This document shows, piece after piece, positions 4,970 to 17,224 of a stretch of DNA of 64,000 nucleotides. Source of the DNA: an uncultured Chitinophagaceae bacterium. GTDB taxonomy: Bacteria > Bacteroidota > Bacteroidia > Chitinophagales > Chitinophagaceae. Where the stretch lies: contig CAITVK010000053.1 of assembly GCA_903895845.1 (NCBI GenBank), positions 1-64,000 on the forward strand, in the 5' to 3' direction. The translations under genes and the position numbers were made by a program. Positions within the stretch are counted from its first letter, which is position 1, and each line of letters begins with the position of its first letter. The notes under the pieces are model-generated. The model ran no database searches. It was not told the DNA's origin and saw only the letters and a list, made by a program, of their open reading frames with translations.

Positions 4970-6283
4970 CTACTTTAACCCGTACTTATATTTATATCTT
5001 TCAAACAATTGTTTCTGTTTATTATCCAGATTCAGCGCTCGTCCTTGTATAAAGGCATTGGTGATATTACTACTTTTCATATCGAGTATATCGCCGCTAC
5101 TGATTACAATATTGGCATCTTTTCCTACTTCCAGACTACCCGTTTTATCCTCTATGCCTAGTATCTTAGCTGCATTCAGCGTGATTGTCTGCAACGCTTC
5201 TTCCTTTGTCAAACCATAAGTTGCTAAGGTGCCTGCCATAAAGGGCAGATTCCGTTGGTTGTAAAACCCACCCATCAGATCGGTGTAAATGGTGAATACA
5301 ATGCCTGCCTTTTGAAGTGCGGCCGCTGTCTTATAAGGCTGATCTATCGCGTCATCTTCTATCAATGGAAGGCTATGAGGGTCTGCTAACACGATTGAAA
5401 CGTTATTTGCTTTTAAAATGTCTGTAATCATCCAACAATCCGTTGCACTTACAAGGGTGAGCTTGAATCCGAACTCTTTTGCTAAGTCAATGGCAACCAA
5501 CATCTCCTTAACCAAATCACAATGAACAAATAATGTCTTGCTTCCATCGAATAATCCCTTTACTGCTTCAAATCTTAGGTTAGTTGCCGTGTGATTTGCT
5601 TCAGCCAAATACCCTTTTGCTTCCCTGAAGAATACTTTTATAGCCTCCACTTTGTCCAATCCCTTCTTCACCGCATCTTCTGCGGCAGGAGTACCACCAC
5701 GGTTGAGATTTATCAATGAGGGCATATTCAAATGAATCCCATTGTCTATTTTATAAGCGGCATCTTCCCAGTTCCAGGCGTCTAATTGAACAACTGAAGA
5801 GTTCCCACTGATGGTACCGCCCTCAGGAACAATGTTCGCTAGTAAAACCCCATTGCTTCTCACTGTATTGATGACTTTACTATCTGTATTATACGCCACC
5901 AACGACCTGATTGCGGCATTCATATCCCCCAATTCTTCATTATCCCGGGTAGATTTGGTGCTCTCTACTTCAATCAAACCCAACTTGGTATTTGCTGCAA
6001 TAATTCCAGGATAAATTTGTTTTCCCGTTGCATCAATCACTTCAGTGGTGGCATCAATTACAGGTAATCCAGCTACTTTATCGTCAGTAATACTTACAAT
6101 CTTGCCTTTTTCGAAGATGATACTCCCTTTCTCAATCACTTTTCCGTTGCCAATATGTATGGTGCCTCCAAGGATAGCAATTTTTGTTGCTTGCGCTGGT
6201 GAAGGGTGCATATTCTCTTGTGCTAGTACCACTTGCCCAATTGAGGCAGTGAAAATCAGTATATAAATAAGTAATTGCTTCAT
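4970..6283 (-). CDS. Secreted amidohydrolase-like protein, degenerate metal site
   Basis: A signal peptide (about residues 1-21, ending VVLAQ) is followed by an imidazolonepropionase/dihydroorotase-like amidohydrolase fold: an N-terminal beta sandwich (IVSITDDK..ATGKQIYPGII) and a C-terminal closure (AAKILGIEDKTGSLEVGKDANIVI). Where active relatives carry the metal-binding HxH just after the PG motif, this protein reads IYPGIIAANTKLGL, and the late SDxP aspartate motif is IYTDLMGG. It therefore probably lacks a normal binuclear metal centre. It is the second gene of an operon, 24 bp after the large double amidohydrolase at 6308-9346, and may act as its partner. Bacteroidota often carry such pairs; the substrate is unknown, with peptides or cyclic amides plausible. 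Confidence 0.88.
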   Translation of the reverse strand: MKQLLIYILIFTASIGQVVLAQENMHPSPAQATKIAILGGTIHIGNGKVIEKGSIIFEKGKIVSITDDKVAGLPVIDATTEVIDATGKQIYPGIIAANTKLGLIEVESTKSTRDNEELGDMNAAIRSLVAYNTDSKVINTVRSNGVLLANIVPEGGTISGNSSVVQLDAWNWEDAAYKIDNGIHLNMPSLINLNRGGTPAAEDAVKKGLDKVEAIKVFFREAKGYLAEANHTATNLRFEAVKGLFDGSKTLFVHCDLVKEMLVAIDLAKEFGFKLTLVSATDCWMITDILKANNVSIVLADPHSLPLIEDDAIDQPYKTAAALQKAGIVFTIYTDLMGGFYNQRNLPFMAGTLATYGLTKEEALQTITLNAAKILGIEDKTGSLEVGKDANIVISSGDILDMKSSNITNAFIQGRALNLDNKQKQLFERYKYKYGLK

Positions 6284-10980: not shown

Positions 10981-11056
10981 GAATTATTAAAATAAGTATC
11001 ATTTATTAAACCTTTTTTGTTTAATTTCGTTTTTATAATTGTTAAACACAAATTTT

Positions 11057-11557
11057 ATGACGCCTTCAGAATTCGATTACATGTTACTGAACAATACAGA
11101 GTTCCTAAAGCCATTCGCTATCACACTTACGAGAGATAATGAATTGGCTAAAGATTTGTTTCAGGAAACTTTGTTAAGAGCACTTGCAAACAAGGAAAAG
11201 TATAATGATGGTACGAATATAAAAGCATGGTTGTACACAATCATGCGTAATATTTTCATAAACAACTACCGTAGAAAGGCAAAGCAAAACACCATATTTG
11301 ACAGTACTCCAAATGATTTTTTGTTGGATTACAGGCAAGGTGCCGTTACAAATGAGGCCATTGCATCCATCAATATGAAGGAAGTGCATGCAGCCATACA
11401 CAATCTCCCCGCGATATTTAAAAATCCTTTTTTGTTGTACTTTGATGGGTTCAAATACCATGAAATCGCCGACATGTTGGGCGAGCCATTAGGCACTATC
11501 AAAAGTCGTATTCACTTTGCACGTAAACTATTGAAGGCTCAAATAGATAGGCACTAA
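11057..11557 (+). CDS. ECF-type RNA polymerase sigma factor of the carotenoid cluster
   Basis: Sigma-70 region 2 is present (ELAKDLFQETLLRALAN, then AWLYTIMRNIFINNYRR), and region 4 ends the protein (YHEIADMLGEPLGTIKSRIHFARKLL), the helix-turn-helix for the -35/-33 element. There is no region 1 or 3, as in the ECF group. The track ORF starts at TTG 11039; I prefer the ATG at 11057 (MTPSEFDYM). It lies 36 bp before crtI on the same strand, so it is most likely the first gene of the carotenoid operon and its likely activator. No anti-sigma factor is adjacent, so the controlling signal is not visible. In many Bacteroidota carotenoid clusters a regulator such as an ECF sigma or MerR protein occupies this place. 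Confidence 0.9.
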   Translation: MTPSEFDYMLLNNTEFLKPFAITLTRDNELAKDLFQETLLRALANKEKYNDGTNIKAWLYTIMRNIFINNYRRKAKQNTIFDSTPNDFLLDYRQGAVTNEAIASINMKEVHAAIHNLPAIFKNPFLLYFDGFKYHEIADMLGEPLGTIKSRIHFARKLLKAQIDRH

Positions 11558-11593
11558 GCGAGAGCGGTATTTCCTTTTCTCCATAAAACTTAA

Positions 11594-13096
11594 ATGAATA
11601 AAAAGAAAGTTATTGTCATTGGTGCTGGTTTTGCGGGTTTGTCCGTGGCTAGTTTCTTAGCAAAATCAGGGTGTGATGTGACTGTTCTTGAGAAGCATTC
11701 AATGCCTGGCGGTAGGGCGAGGAAGTTTTCTGCCAAAGGTTTTACCTTCGATATGGGACCAAGCTGGTATTGGATGCCCGATGTATTTGAAAGATACTTT
11801 AAACAGTTCGGGAAACAAGTTTCCGATTACTATCAACTAAAAAGGCTTGACCCTTCCTATCGCATTTACTGGGCTGATGCCCCCATGGATATTCCTGCAA
11901 GCTACAGTGAACTGAAAACATTATTTAATCAGCTTGAACCAGGAAGTGCTGAAAAGCTTGAACAATTTATTGCGGAAGCGGCATTTAAATACAAAGTAGG
12001 TATTGATAAACTGGTGCATAAGCCGGGGCGTTCGCTCACGGAATTTATAGACTACGATTTGATAAGCGGATTATTTCGATTGGATGTGTTTAGTTCTATC
12101 AAAACACATGTGAGGAAATTATTCAAGAATGAAAAGATAAGGCAGTTATTAGAGTTTCCTGTTTTGTTCCTGGGCGCATTGGCGGAAAATACACCAGCCC
12201 TTTACAGCTTGATGAACTATGCCGACATTGTTGGGGGTACCTGGTATCCACAAAACGGTATGTATGAAATTGTGGATGCAATGTATTCAGTTGCAGTAGA
12301 GTTGGGGGTTGCATTTGAGTTTAATCAGGATGTAACAGAGATAATCATTAAGGATGGGAAAGCCGTTGGTGTAAAAACTTCTTTACGCACAGCTGATAAC
12401 ACAAAACTCACCACTTATGACGCAGATATTGTGGTGGGAGCAGCAGATTATCATTTTATAGAAACAAAACTATTGCCTAAAGAAGCGAGAAGTTATACGG
12501 ATAAATATTGGGATACGAGGGTAATGGCGCCAAGTTGTCTGTTGTATTATGTGGGATTGAACAAGAAGTTAGAAAATTTGCCACACCATTCGCTTTTCTT
12601 CGACACATCGTTTGAGGTTCACGGTAAAGAAATTTATACTGACAAACAATGGCCAACCGATCCGTTGTTCTATGTAGGTGCACCCTCTGTGACAGATAAA
12701 ACGGTAGCCCCCGAAGGATGCGAAAACCTTTTCCTGTTAATTCCCGTAGCTACTGGTTTGACGGGAGATGATGAAAAACTAAGAGACAAATACTTTGAAC
12801 TGATTGTTGAGAGAATGGAAAAGCATCTAAAACAATCTATAAAATCAAATGTTATTTACAAAAAATCATTCGCATTAAGTGATTTTATCAGTGAGTATAA
12901 TGCTTTTAAGGGGAATGCCTACGGATTGGCAAATACACTTTTACAAACAGCGATACTAAAGCCTGCATGTATAAGTAAGAAAGTGAAAAACCTATTCTAT
13001 ACGGGTCAGTTGACTGTTCCCGGTCCTGGTGTCCCTCCAAGCTTGATAAGTGGAGAGGTTGTGGCTAAAGAAATTATAAAATCATTTCATAAATAA
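11594..13096 (+). CDS. crtI: Phytoene desaturase
   Basis: CrtI introduces double bonds into phytoene, usually four steps to lycopene in bacteria, with FAD and without quinone relay. The dinucleotide-binding motif VIGAGFAGLSVASFLAKSG is at residues 9-27, followed by PGGRARKF, and the family C-terminal signature appears as TGQLTVPGPGVPPSLISGEVVA. At 500 aa it has the usual length. It is membrane-associated rather than integral. It follows the sigma gene by 36 bp and precedes crtB by 22 bp, so co-transcription is likely. Related desaturases (CrtD-type or diapophytoene enzymes) cannot be excluded by eye, but the pairing with crtB makes phytoene the best substrate guess. Confidence 0.95.
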   Translation: MNKKKVIVIGAGFAGLSVASFLAKSGCDVTVLEKHSMPGGRARKFSAKGFTFDMGPSWYWMPDVFERYFKQFGKQVSDYYQLKRLDPSYRIYWADAPMDIPASYSELKTLFNQLEPGSAEKLEQFIAEAAFKYKVGIDKLVHKPGRSLTEFIDYDLISGLFRLDVFSSIKTHVRKLFKNEKIRQLLEFPVLFLGALAENTPALYSLMNYADIVGGTWYPQNGMYEIVDAMYSVAVELGVAFEFNQDVTEIIIKDGKAVGVKTSLRTADNTKLTTYDADIVVGAADYHFIETKLLPKEARSYTDKYWDTRVMAPSCLLYYVGLNKKLENLPHHSLFFDTSFEVHGKEIYTDKQWPTDPLFYVGAPSVTDKTVAPEGCENLFLLIPVATGLTGDDEKLRDKYFELIVERMEKHLKQSIKSNVIYKKSFALSDFISEYNAFKGNAYGLANTLLQTAILKPACISKKVKNLFYTGQLTVPGPGVPPSLISGEVVAKEIIKSFHK

Positions 13097-13118
13097 ACGC
13101 TTAAAACGAGAAACGGCA

Positions 13119-13961
13119 ATGACAAACATGCAACTCTTTGATGATGTTAGCCAAGATTGTAGCAGAAATACAACGGAGAAATACAGCACTAGCTTCTCTT
13201 CGTCTATAAAACTATTGGGTGCTTCGTTGCAGCAGCCCATCTTTAATATTTATGGGTTTGTTCGTTTTGCTGATGAGATTGTAGATACATTTCATGAGTA
13301 CGATAAACAAACGCTCCTAGATGAATTTAAGGCTGCAACCTATCAGGCGATTGATAGGGGAATCAGCCTTAATCCAATCCTTCAGAGTTTTCAATTGACT
13401 GTAAATAAATATAACATTGATAAGGCGTTGATTGAGGCTTTCTTGCACAGTATGGAGCTGGATTTGGGCAAAAAGCAATACGACAGGGCTGGCTATGAGG
13501 AATATATCTATGGTAGTGCAGAAGTTGTTGGACTGATGTGTTTGTATGTTTTCTGCAATGGCAACAAAGAACTTTATGAAGAACTGAAACCCGGTGCAAG
13601 AAGCTTGGGTGCTGCATTTCAGAAAGTAAACTTCTTAAGAGACCTAAAGGCTGATTACAATGGCCTTGAACGGGTTTACTTCCCTGGGTGCGACTTTAAA
13701 AACTTTACTAAATGTGATAAACAAACCATAGAAGCTGACATACAAAAAGACTTTGATGATGCTTATCAAGCAATATTGAAACTGCCCTTGCAAGCGCGTT
13801 TTGGCGTTTATGTAGCGTATAAGTATTACTTGTCCCTTTTTAATAAAATCAAGAAGCTACAACCGCAAAACATATTGCACGAGCGGGTGCGTATTCCAGA
13901 TTATACCAAGATATTAATTCTTGCTAAAGCGGGTATCAGGCAGCAGTTCAACTTATTGTAA
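13119..13961 (+). CDS. crtB: Phytoene/squalene synthase family protein, likely phytoene synthase
   Basis: Condenses two geranylgeranyl diphosphates head to head to phytoene. Both aspartate-rich Mg-diphosphate sites are visible: DEIVD at residues 52-56 and NFLRDLKAD at 171-179. The product cyclises no further here; no lycopene cyclase, hydroxylase or ketolase gene is in the window, so the final pigment is unknown. The start is the first ATG, 22 bp after crtI; a second ATG three codons on is possible. The gene is the third in the sigma-crtI-crtB-idi order. Confidence 0.95.
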   Translation: MTNMQLFDDVSQDCSRNTTEKYSTSFSSSIKLLGASLQQPIFNIYGFVRFADEIVDTFHEYDKQTLLDEFKAATYQAIDRGISLNPILQSFQLTVNKYNIDKALIEAFLHSMELDLGKKQYDRAGYEEYIYGSAEVVGLMCLYVFCNGNKELYEELKPGARSLGAAFQKVNFLRDLKADYNGLERVYFPGCDFKNFTKCDKQTIEADIQKDFDDAYQAILKLPLQARFGVYVAYKYYLSLFNKIKKLQPQNILHERVRIPDYTKILILAKAGIRQQFNLL

Positions 13962-14039
13962 TGTCTGTATTTATTTAGTTGGTGTAATCGATTGAATGAA
14001 CGGTTCTGTTCTAATGTTGCTTTCATTTAATTTTATGTA

Positions 14040-14579
14040 ATGGAAAGAGTTGTTTTGGTTGATGAAAATGATAACGAGCTAGGTACAATGGAAAAGATGG
14101 AAGCGCATCAAAAAGGATTGCTACACAGAGCATTTAGCGTATTTATCTTTAATAAGAACGGGGAGATGTTGTTGCAACAACGTTCTTTACGCAAATATCA
14201 TAGTGGGGGATTGTGGACGAATGCATGTTGTAGTCATCCTCGAAAAGATGAAACACCTATTGATGCAGCTCACAGAAGACTAAAGGAAGAAATGGGCTTT
14301 GAGACATCCTTGAAGAAAGCTTTTGACTTTACATACAAAGCCAACTTTAGCAACGGACTAAGCGAACATGAATTTGATCACGTTTTTGTAGGTCATTATG
14401 ATGGCAAAGTTGAGCCCAACTTTGCTGAAGTTGAATCTTATGCTTTCAGGTCCCTTGATAGATTGGATGCAGGTGTAAAAGAATATCCCGATTTTTTTAC
14501 TGAATGGTTCTTGATTGCCTATCCTAAACTCAAAGAGTGGTTAAAGGAAAATGAATTATTGAACAATAGAAAGTTATAA
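14040..14579 (+). CDS. idi: Isopentenyl-diphosphate delta-isomerase, type 1
   Basis: Interconverts IPP and DMAPP, the allylic starter for the prenyl chain used by CrtB. A Nudix-fold enzyme: the active-site cysteine is in TNACCSHP (Cys63 or Cys64), metal-binding glutamates are in RRLKEEMGF (83-84), and LLHRAFSVFIFN is the usual entry strand. 179 aa is typical. It is 78 bp behind crtB. The sequence TAATTTTA exactly 4 nt before the ATG is one base from a -7 box, so it might also have its own leaderless transcript. A bidirectional hairpin terminator follows. Confidence 0.96.
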   Translation: MERVVLVDENDNELGTMEKMEAHQKGLLHRAFSVFIFNKNGEMLLQQRSLRKYHSGGLWTNACCSHPRKDETPIDAAHRRLKEEMGFETSLKKAFDFTYKANFSNGLSEHEFDHVFVGHYDGKVEPNFAEVESYAFRSLDRLDAGVKEYPDFFTEWFLIAYPKLKEWLKENELLNNRKL

Positions 14580-14656: not shown

Positions 14657-15151
14657 TTAGTCCTCCGTTTTACGCCACAAATCTGGAGTAGACAACGCAA
14701 GGTCTGAAGCTTGTTTTATGTAAAGAAACAATTGCATCTTATAGCCGGTCAGCCACTTGACACTTGTTTCCAAAATAGCTTTTCCTAAGGTATCTGTTGT
14801 ACCCCAAGGATAAGAAACCACTTTGGTTGCCAGATCTTCCTCGCTGATAGAAGCAAATATCTCATTTACCAACTCTATCTGTGCATCAAAAATAGCCGCT
14901 GCATTCTCAAGCGTTACCAAAGGGGCATTCTCTCTAAGCTTCATCAGAAAAGGACGTGCTTCTGTTTCATTACTTTGCCAGAATAGTAGCATTCCGGTAC
15001 CTGCACCACTTAGGTATTGAAGTAACTCAATAATGCTTCTTACATTTTCCTTTGGACGGAAGTCCAATGAATCTGTAGGCACTTTAGTACTTAAACGTTT
15101 GATAAGCTTTAATTCTTTAATGATGCTGTCTTTCAAAATCTCTTTTAGCAT
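14657..15151 (-). CDS. DinB-like four-helix protein without metal-binding histidines
   Basis: The length (164 aa), four-helix pattern and phrases such as LDFRPKENVRSIIELLQYLSG match the DinB/YfiT superfamily, whose members coordinate a metal through three histidines and are often thiol transferases. This protein contains no histidine at all: at the usual third ligand position it reads KWLTGYKMQLFLYIK, where relatives have H..HRGQL. It is therefore probably metal-free, with a changed or lost enzymatic role. Monocistronic, convergent with idi. The in-frame ATG at 15151 is the obvious start. Confidence 0.78.
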   Translation of the reverse strand: MLKEILKDSIIKELKLIKRLSTKVPTDSLDFRPKENVRSIIELLQYLSGAGTGMLLFWQSNETEARPFLMKLRENAPLVTLENAAAIFDAQIELVNEIFASISEEDLATKVVSYPWGTTDTLGKAILETSVKWLTGYKMQLFLYIKQASDLALSTPDLWRKTED

Positions 15152-15248: not shown

Positions 15249-15665
15249 CTAGCTCAGTAGTTCAGTAAATATGCTTACCAATCTATTGCTGGAGATAGGT
15301 TTGATAATGTAGTCGCTGACAGCACTAATGTTTCTTGCCCTGTCCAGATCGCGCATGTCGATAGAGGAACTAACAACATAGATGACAATGTTTTTGCCAA
15401 TGCGTGGCTTCAGTGGCAGGTAAGCTTCCAGAAACTCCCACCCATCCATTATGGGCATATTGATGTCTAGAAATATAACATCAGGTAAAAGGGCAATATC
15501 ACTAGTGTCCAGTTTACTGGTTATATACTTGATGGCCTGTGCCCCATCATCAAAAAACATTACCTTGCTCACAAGGTTAGTGTATGTAATCTCTTCCTTT
15601 GCAAGAAACTGATAGATGAGGTCGTCATCTATAATACATACACTGTCAATTTTATTTTTAATCAT
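15249..15665 (-). CDS. Single-domain response regulator
   Basis: A receiver domain only (138 aa): acidic pocket IIDDD near residue 13, phospho-acceptor in IFLDINMPIMDGWEF, switch residues VVSSS and the conserved Lys in DYIIKPIS. There is no output domain, so it probably signals by protein contact or phosphotransfer. The start overlaps the end of the histidine kinase at 15662 by 4 bp (ATGA), which implies translational coupling and a dedicated kinase-regulator pair. This REC type (rcp1-like) typically accompanies PAS-type kinases. Confidence 0.93.
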   Translation of the reverse strand: MIKNKIDSVCIIDDDLIYQFLAKEEITYTNLVSKVMFFDDGAQAIKYITSKLDTSDIALLPDVIFLDINMPIMDGWEFLEAYLPLKPRIGKNIVIYVVSSSIDMRDLDRARNISAVSDYIIKPISSNRLVSIFTELLS

Positions 15666-17224
15666 AATACTTCTATTTCATTAAATTTTATAATAAATTT
15701 TGTCTCTTTGTTTGGCTCGCTTTCTATTGTTATACTGCCACCAAGAGATCTGATTTGATGCTTTGTGATAAACAATCCAATTCCTCTTGCATCGGGGTTA
15801 TTGTGAAAGGTTTTATTGAGTGTAAAGACTTTACCCCCATACTTTTTCAAATCTATTCCTAATCCATTGTCACTACATTCAAGAGAAATAAGACCACTTG
15901 CGGCTCTATGAGAAACAAATGAAATCTCTGGCGTTCTATCTGGTGAGGCATATTTAATCGCATTTGTCAGCAGATTTAATAGCACACTCTCCAGATACAT
16001 TTTTGGATAACTTATTTGCTCACACTCAGAGAAATCGTAGGTGATCACTGCCTTCGAGGCTGTAATTTGTTCGCTCAGGCTCGTAATCAAATTCTGCAAT
16101 ACGGTTTCGAACCGTAGCTCGTCCCGATGCACTTCTAAGCTTTGATTGATGTTTACTACCTCACTTAGATTTTGTACGGTGTTGGACAACTGATCGGCTA
16201 CTGCAAAGAACTTAGCAAGAATTTCTTCTTTCATTTCAGGGTCGGTCGTGCGCCTGTAAACGTCTTGAAGCGACATCAGGTTGCCTGTTGGTGAGCGAAG
16301 ATTGTGGGACACGATGTAAGCAAAATCCTGTAACACATTGCGTTTGTATTCCAGTCGCTTGGATAGTTTCTCCAACCTGTCAATTGTAGAAATAAGCTGT
16401 TGCTCATTGTTTCTTATCAGTGTAATGTCTTTGCTAAGTGTAAGCACATTGTTCACCTCACCGTTCTCATCTTGCAATGGAATTATACTAATATCAAAAT
16501 AAGCGTCTCCTTTTCGGTCTGTTTTGGTCTTCAATTCATAGTGTGCGCCTTTGCCAGTAGCAAATACCCCTTGCAGGCTTTCTATAAAAAAGGCTTTGTT
16601 TGTCTCGCTCTCCGGCAATACTTCCATTGGTGTTTTGCCAATATACTTTTCAATATCCCTGTCTGTAATTAACCCTAGGGATTCATTTATAAATTTATAT
16701 TTCAAGTCCTTGCCAATCATCATTATGATATCGGGATTATTATTTATCAGCGCCTTAAATTGCTGTTCACTTTCTCTCAGTTTCTTGTTTGATACCTTTA
16801 AAGCTTGCGTTTGTTCATCTATTATTTTTTGTAGTTGAGTCGGGGATTTAAAGTGAAGTGCCTCGGGCAATACTTTATATAAAACAAGGACTGTTGCCGA
16901 AGAAAGTAGGGCTGTTATTAGTAGGATGATGGCATTGAATCGGTAAAGCGGATGCCAAAACATGATAGCGTCTGCAAGGTGAGACAAGCCACAGAAGATG
17001 ATAAAAAAGCTGAAAAGGACAAAGACTTTTGCAAACGGAATGTCTTTTCTTCTTCTCACAAAGAAAAAGATCATCAGCGGAATCGCTAGATAACTGATGC
17101 CGATATTTATGTCTGATAAAATACAAATCCAACCTGTGCTTTCATTCCATCTGCCACATTTCCAACGGGGCATAAAATCGCTGGCATCAAAAAGCTTTTT
17201 CAAAAAATCAAGAATCGTATCCAT
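15662..17224 (-). CDS. PAS sensor histidine kinase with ethylene-receptor-like (ETR1-type) membrane domain
   Basis: Residues 34-118 form three membrane helices that align with the ethylene-binding domain of plant ETR1. With a constant offset of 13, Asp38, Tyr45, Ile48, Pro49, Ile75, Cys78 and His82 fall on ETR1 Asp25, Tyr32, Ile35, Pro36, Ile62, Cys65 and His69; the last two are the copper ligands. Then follow a PAS domain (about 152-270), a coiled linker, a HisKA-type H-box SHNLRSP with His307, an N-box LLNLLTNAIKYA (Asn421) and G-boxes DNGLGID and GIGLFITK. It autophosphorylates and very likely passes phosphate to the overlapping response regulator. Copper or ethylene binding is inference; bacterial homologues of this domain are widespread and mostly uncharacterised. 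Starts with ATG at 17224. Confidence 0.92.
   Translation of the reverse strand: MDTILDFLKKLFDASDFMPRWKCGRWNESTGWICILSDINIGISYLAIPLMIFFFVRRRKDIPFAKVFVLFSFFIIFCGLSHLADAIMFWHPLYRFNAIILLITALLSSATVLVLYKVLPEALHFKSPTQLQKIIDEQTQALKVSNKKLRESEQQFKALINNNPDIIMMIGKDLKYKFINESLGLITDRDIEKYIGKTPMEVLPESETNKAFFIESLQGVFATGKGAHYELKTKTDRKGDAYFDISIIPLQDENGEVNNVLTLSKDITLIRNNEQQLISTIDRLEKLSKRLEYKRNVLQDFAYIVSHNLRSPTGNLMSLQDVYRRTTDPEMKEEILAKFFAVADQLSNTVQNLSEVVNINQSLEVHRDELRFETVLQNLITSLSEQITASKAVITYDFSECEQISYPKMYLESVLLNLLTNAIKYASPDRTPEISFVSHRAASGLISLECSDNGLGIDLKKYGGKVFTLNKTFHNNPDARGIGLFITKHQIRSLGGSITIESEPNKETKFIIKFNEIEVL

Follow-up and report, generated by a model that had tools for sequence, protein, structure and literature searches.

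In this work, a sensor histidine kinase encoded on the minus strand of the window (the whole 64,000-nucleotide stretch of an uncultured Chitinophagaceae contig that was analysed) was found to carry an N-terminal domain of the ethylene-receptor type, and judging from its sequence, its predicted structure and its likeness to characterized relatives, it is probably a bacterial ethylene receptor. Bacterial ethylene receptors of the same architecture are already known, AzoEtr1 among them, and by sequence the window kinase is a new Bacteroidota member. To our knowledge, such receptors have been assayed in very few species, namely cyanobacteria and Azospirillum. The identification rests on the identity of the domain, the conservation of its residues, the fold predicted for it, the motifs of kinase and receiver, and a gene coupling that recurs in relatives. 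It provides a clean Bacteroidota case with the partner regulator attached; the particular point of interest of this kinase is its place in a sub-lineage that has leucine at the position of ETR1 Lys91.

Domain organization of the kinase

The kinase frame opens with ATG at 17224 and its stop ends at 15662. The sequence-only reading had given these coordinates correctly, although the strand was absent from it. The following features were assigned:

15662–17224, minus strand: ethylene-receptor-type sensor histidine kinase, 520 aa, EBD–PAS–DHp/HATPase (ORF and translation; Pfam ETR1_N, PAS_4, HATPase_c)
16853–17134, minus strand: ETR1_N ethylene-binding domain, aa 31–124, three predicted membrane helices (Pfam, genome scan, AlphaFold2)
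16421–16741, minus strand: PAS domain, aa 162–268 (Pfam PAS_4, E 1.2e-9)
16304–16306, minus strand: predicted phospho-acceptor His307 in the motif SHNLRSP (motif position; function by analogy with the histidine-kinase family)
15683–15994, minus strand: HATPase_c catalytic domain, aa 411–514 (Pfam, E 1.9e-14; motifs)

The match of ETR1_N (PF25487) to residues 31–124 reached 104.7 bits (E 3.3e-30) against a curated Pfam cut-off of 27. In a genome-wide scan the same domain was recovered at E 4.9e-31 as the only one in the 4.0-Mb genome, and none was found in 14 control genomes by the same search. A chance or generic membrane-helix similarity is therefore excluded as the source of the match, both by the score and by the clean controls. 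The fusion to PAS and kinase domains, proposed earlier from the letters, was borne out by PAS_4 and HATPase_c. The kinase boxes are intact on motif inspection, with His307 in SHNLRSP, the N box NLLTNAIKYA, G1 DNGLGID and G2 GIGLFI. A GAF domain, which follows the membrane domain in plant-type ETR1, was not found in the window kinase by Pfam; PAS_4 occupies that place.

The putative copper and ethylene pocket

The pocket residues and the position discussed below map as follows:

17111–17113, minus strand: codon of Asp38, equivalent to ETR1 Asp25 (alignment)
16991–16993, minus strand: codon of Cys78, equivalent to ETR1 Cys65, putative Cu(I) ligand (alignment; invariant in 28 diverse relatives)
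16979–16981, minus strand: codon of His82, equivalent to ETR1 His69, putative Cu(I) ligand (alignment; nearly invariant in 28 diverse relatives)
16922–16924, minus strand: codon of Leu101, at the position of ETR1 Lys91, no basic residue (alignment)

Alignment confirmed that all seven pocket residues of ETR1 are matched at a constant offset of 13 (D25 to D38, Y32 to Y45, I35 to I48, P36 to P49, I62 to I75, C65 to C78 and H69 to H82). The Tyr, both Ile and the Pro are likewise invariant across the 28 relatives. BLASTP aligned the kinase with the ETR1 membrane part at 34% identity over 96 aa (E 5e-15); the Arabidopsis ETR1 sequence used in the alignment and in this search was entered by hand, and the AzoEtr1 sequence was fetched and aligned independently of those letters. 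The pocket had been called complete; this holds for the seven residues and fails for the equivalent of Lys91, which is missing here and in close kin.

A structure prediction, proposed earlier as a check, gave a confident three-helix membrane domain. With 13 sequences, AlphaFold2 reached pLDDT 91.7, with three long N-terminal helices (28–58, 65–87 and 94–123) and a linker helix (128–144) after the third; Cys78 and His82 are positioned in the second helix. A model built from two sequences was poor (pLDDT 58). A PDB search by sequence recovered no solved structure related to the membrane domain, and by fold there was no match under E 2. The proposal of an ethylene-receptor-type sensor with putative Cu(I) ligands Cys78 and His82 is supported by sequence and by analogy, since in Azospirillum a receptor of this architecture binds ethylene (PMC11819568). 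A copper P1B-ATPase is encoded in the genome, and 13 of the 14 control genomes also pass the cut-off for one, so its presence is permissive rather than telling, as nearly all genomes have one.

Regulator and neighboring genes

15249–15665, minus strand: single-domain response regulator, 138 aa, putative phospho-acceptor Asp67 (Pfam Response_reg, E 3e-14; ATGA overlap; same pair in relatives)
14657–15151, minus strand: DinB-like protein of 164 aa, encoded 97 bp beyond the regulator on the downstream side (Pfam DinB_2, a weak hit under the cut-off)

The start of the regulator (15665) shares the four bases ATGA with the kinase stop, as the sequence-only reading had noticed. The receiver motifs (acidic IIDDD, Asp67 and the Lys in IKPIS) are intact, and by Pfam the protein is a bare receiver without a DNA-binding domain. 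A receiver-only gene lies immediately downstream of the kinase in about 25 of the 68 relatives' loci examined, judged from the start of each sequence; therefore the kinase–regulator pair is a recurrent unit. The DinB-like gene adjoins the pair in the genus-mate G368 (87%) and the relative G319 (76%) and was not found beside it in G252; it is possible that it forms the third gene of the unit.

Adjacent to the pair, on the plus strand at 11039–14579, a sigma-70-family (ECF-like) gene is followed in the same direction by phytoene desaturase-like, phytoene synthase and NUDIX (isopentenyl-diphosphate isomerase-like) genes, which is probably a carotenoid cluster with its own sigma factor. Carotenoid genes were rejected as conserved context of the pair, as none occurred in the stretches fetched around the relatives' genes.

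Leucine at the position of ETR1 Lys91

In helix 3 the register shifts to an offset of 10, and ETR1 Lys91 falls on Leu101. A passage in PMC11819568, citing Azhar et al. 2023, describes Lys91 as involved in output and as modelled to bridge Asp25 and helix 3, with a predicted bond to Asp25. The pair was tallied in 90 sequences that retain both Cys65 and His69; they comprise ETR1 together with sequences from Bacteroidota genomes and from plasmids of other phyla. A basic residue (K or R) stands at position 91 in 72 of the 90, and in every one of these position 25 is acidic (70 Asp, 2 Glu). Among the 18 sequences with a non-basic residue, position 25 is acidic in nine, Asn or Ser in eight (8/17 non-acid) and unaligned in one. 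In a tree of 98 columns, the window kinase and six other Leu-91 sequences (L065, L066, L067, L069, L075 and L107) form a group of seven with support 86, within which the same-genus four are joined at 98. Phylogenetically independent comparisons with tree support number just two to three for the association of a base at 91 with an acid at 25 and zero against, which is not significant; in these sequences the association is therefore suggestive, not proven.

Because the helix-3 lysine of ETR1 is leucine here, the coupling of binding to output in the window kinase probably differs in detail, as far as its sequence indicates, from that of ETR1 and AzoEtr1. We tentatively hypothesize that a Bacteroidota sub-lineage has taken the Asp25–Lys91 polar bridge apart and kept the copper pocket, with ethylene binding signalled to the kinase in some other way. 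If true, the D/L, N/L, S/L and N/D pairs that occur naturally already supply the variants with which to probe the bridge model. In this clade, variation falls at exactly the two residues through which ligand binding is proposed to reach output, so the model becomes testable in a system that is small and can be expressed.

It would go further to suppose that Cu(I) and ethylene are bound but that, with the bridge gone, output is constitutive, inverted or shifted in affinity, which would make this a functionally distinct sub-lineage. The leucine shared by the clade, the pairing of residues 25 and 91 and the output role described for Lys91 speak for this, but the independent comparisons are few and Lys91 is perhaps not needed by bacterial kinases, and we regard it as possible though doubtful. 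It is a refinement of the ethylene-receptor explanation and not its opposite. A basic residue at 91 is common, not universal, lies outside the seven binding residues and is not treated as defining for bacterial ethylene receptors.

Distribution and relatives

The ETR1_N domain was detected in 5 of 13 genomes of the genus, 72 of 399 of the family Chitinophagaceae and 21 of 396 in a phylum-wide sample; ethylene-receptor-type proteins are thus widespread but patchy in Chitinophagaceae. Beyond membership of this family, nothing supports the earlier assignment to a soil- or plant-type bacterium. ACC deaminase was not found in the genome (20 bits against a cut-off of 392), a link to plant association was rejected on that ground, and no tie of the receptor to a plant lifestyle is visible.

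The close relative G319 has Asn at the Asp25 position, and among the five of the same genus the G204 kinase (L068, G204:C153:14138–15589, minus strand), 48% identical to the window kinase over aa 31–516, has a degenerate pocket with Phe at both the Asp25 and His69 positions; no regulator was found directly downstream of it. Because of these two cases, the sequences suggest that the ETR1_N domain can persist without ethylene binding. In further Chitinophagaceae kinases (L101, L102, L103, L112 and L197–L200) His69 is Phe or Tyr, and Cys65 is also lost in some; some pocket-altered kinases are second copies beside a canonical one in the same genome (G192, G064). From their sequences, the His69-altered kinases seem to have put the fold to use for a different signal. 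That the membrane domain of the window kinase is likewise a relict, a mere anchor with the PAS domain as the real sensor, is very improbable, since pocket-less kinases do exist (in G204, and L101, L102, L103, L199 and L200 of other genera) but none of the seven pocket residues has changed in the window kinase, G368 or G252, at an overall identity of just 63–68%.

Stand-alone ETR1_N proteins were also observed in phages and on viral contigs:

L144, 2893–3762, plus strand: Molly1_65 of Maribacter phage Molly_1 (MT732451.1), ETR1_N; the same in L151 at 5001–5870
L154 3968–4387, L155 3749–4558, L159 3788–4348, L160 3974–4441, L161 3120–3569, L162 3992–4399, L163 1102–1692: stand-alone viral-contig ETR1_N proteins (Pfam)

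In the isolated Maribacter phages Molly and Colly, a 289-aa 'hypothetical protein' matches ETR1_N at E 1.5e-16. It keeps Tyr32, Ile35, Ile62, Cys65 and His69 and has Asn25, Ser36 and Asp91. The unusual Asn25/Asp91 pair recurs in the ETR1_N of two frames of about 1,567 aa in Bacteroidota genomes (L120 in G788, L122 in G974). The phage gene lies 3 bp before an amidase gene, the sole annotated lysis gene; in the paper describing these phages no holin is listed and ethylene goes unmentioned. Among structural matches of the window domain, a 289-aa viral model ranks first; it is probably this phage protein. The proteins on IMG/VR viral contigs measure 135–269 aa, carry no kinase, score 50–121 bits (all above the Pfam cut-off), keep Cys65 and His69 throughout, and matched no PHROG family. 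Some of these contigs may be cellular; L154 adjoins DUF72 and RF-1 genes.

Ligand and proposed mechanism

By analogy with its relatives, ethylene is the best candidate ligand of the window kinase. Ethylene, another small olefin or copper had been put forward as candidate signals; the first stands, and copper is a cofactor in the ethylene-receptor family rather than a likely signal. ETR1-type sites also take other small π-acids, and relatives and phage proteins lacking Asp25 still have the copper ligands. It could therefore be argued that the natural signal is another olefin, CO or copper status itself. We consider this unlikely, as all seven ethylene-binding residues are retained, the annotated neighbors of the pair include no copper-homeostasis gene, and the bacterial relatives so far assayed respond to ethylene (PMC11819568).

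For the ethylene receptor, we infer copper, ethylene, phosphotransfer and output from family knowledge of AzoEtr1, SynEtr1 and ETR1. Cu(I) would be held by Cys78 and His82 of the N-terminal three-helix membrane domain, with Asp38 nearby, and would bind ethylene dissolved in the membrane. Binding would alter helix packing in the kinase dimer, and through the linker helix and PAS domain this would change autophosphorylation at His307. Asp67 of the single-domain regulator, which is co-translated with the kinase, would then receive the phosphoryl group; since it lacks a DNA-binding domain, this regulator would probably act on other proteins through protein contact.

Comparison with known ethylene receptors

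Arabidopsis ETR1 has the same seven binding residues, three-helix membrane domain and kinase core, whereas its GAF domain and fused receiver are both missing from the window kinase, its Lys91 is leucine here, and its N-terminal cysteine spacing differs. SynEtr1 of Synechocystis PCC 6803, compared by description, likewise combines a bacterial ethylene-binding domain with a histidine kinase whose output runs through a regulator (PMC11819568), but it also senses light, and the window kinase has a PAS domain only. In AzoEtr1 of Azospirillum brasilense Sp7, ethylene binding has been shown and all seven residues are present (PMC11819568). Its host is an Alphaproteobacterium, its gene lies on a plasmid, and its counterpart of ETR1 Lys91 is Lys98, in contrast to Leu101 of the window kinase. 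On the other hand, the two kinases align over their full length (25% identity, E 3e-40), share the EBD–PAS–HK order and the seven binding residues at 525 and 520 aa (PMC11819568), and are each followed by an overlapping single-domain regulator, AzoRRetr1 of 135 aa with an 8-bp overlap in Azospirillum and the 138-aa protein with a 4-bp overlap here.
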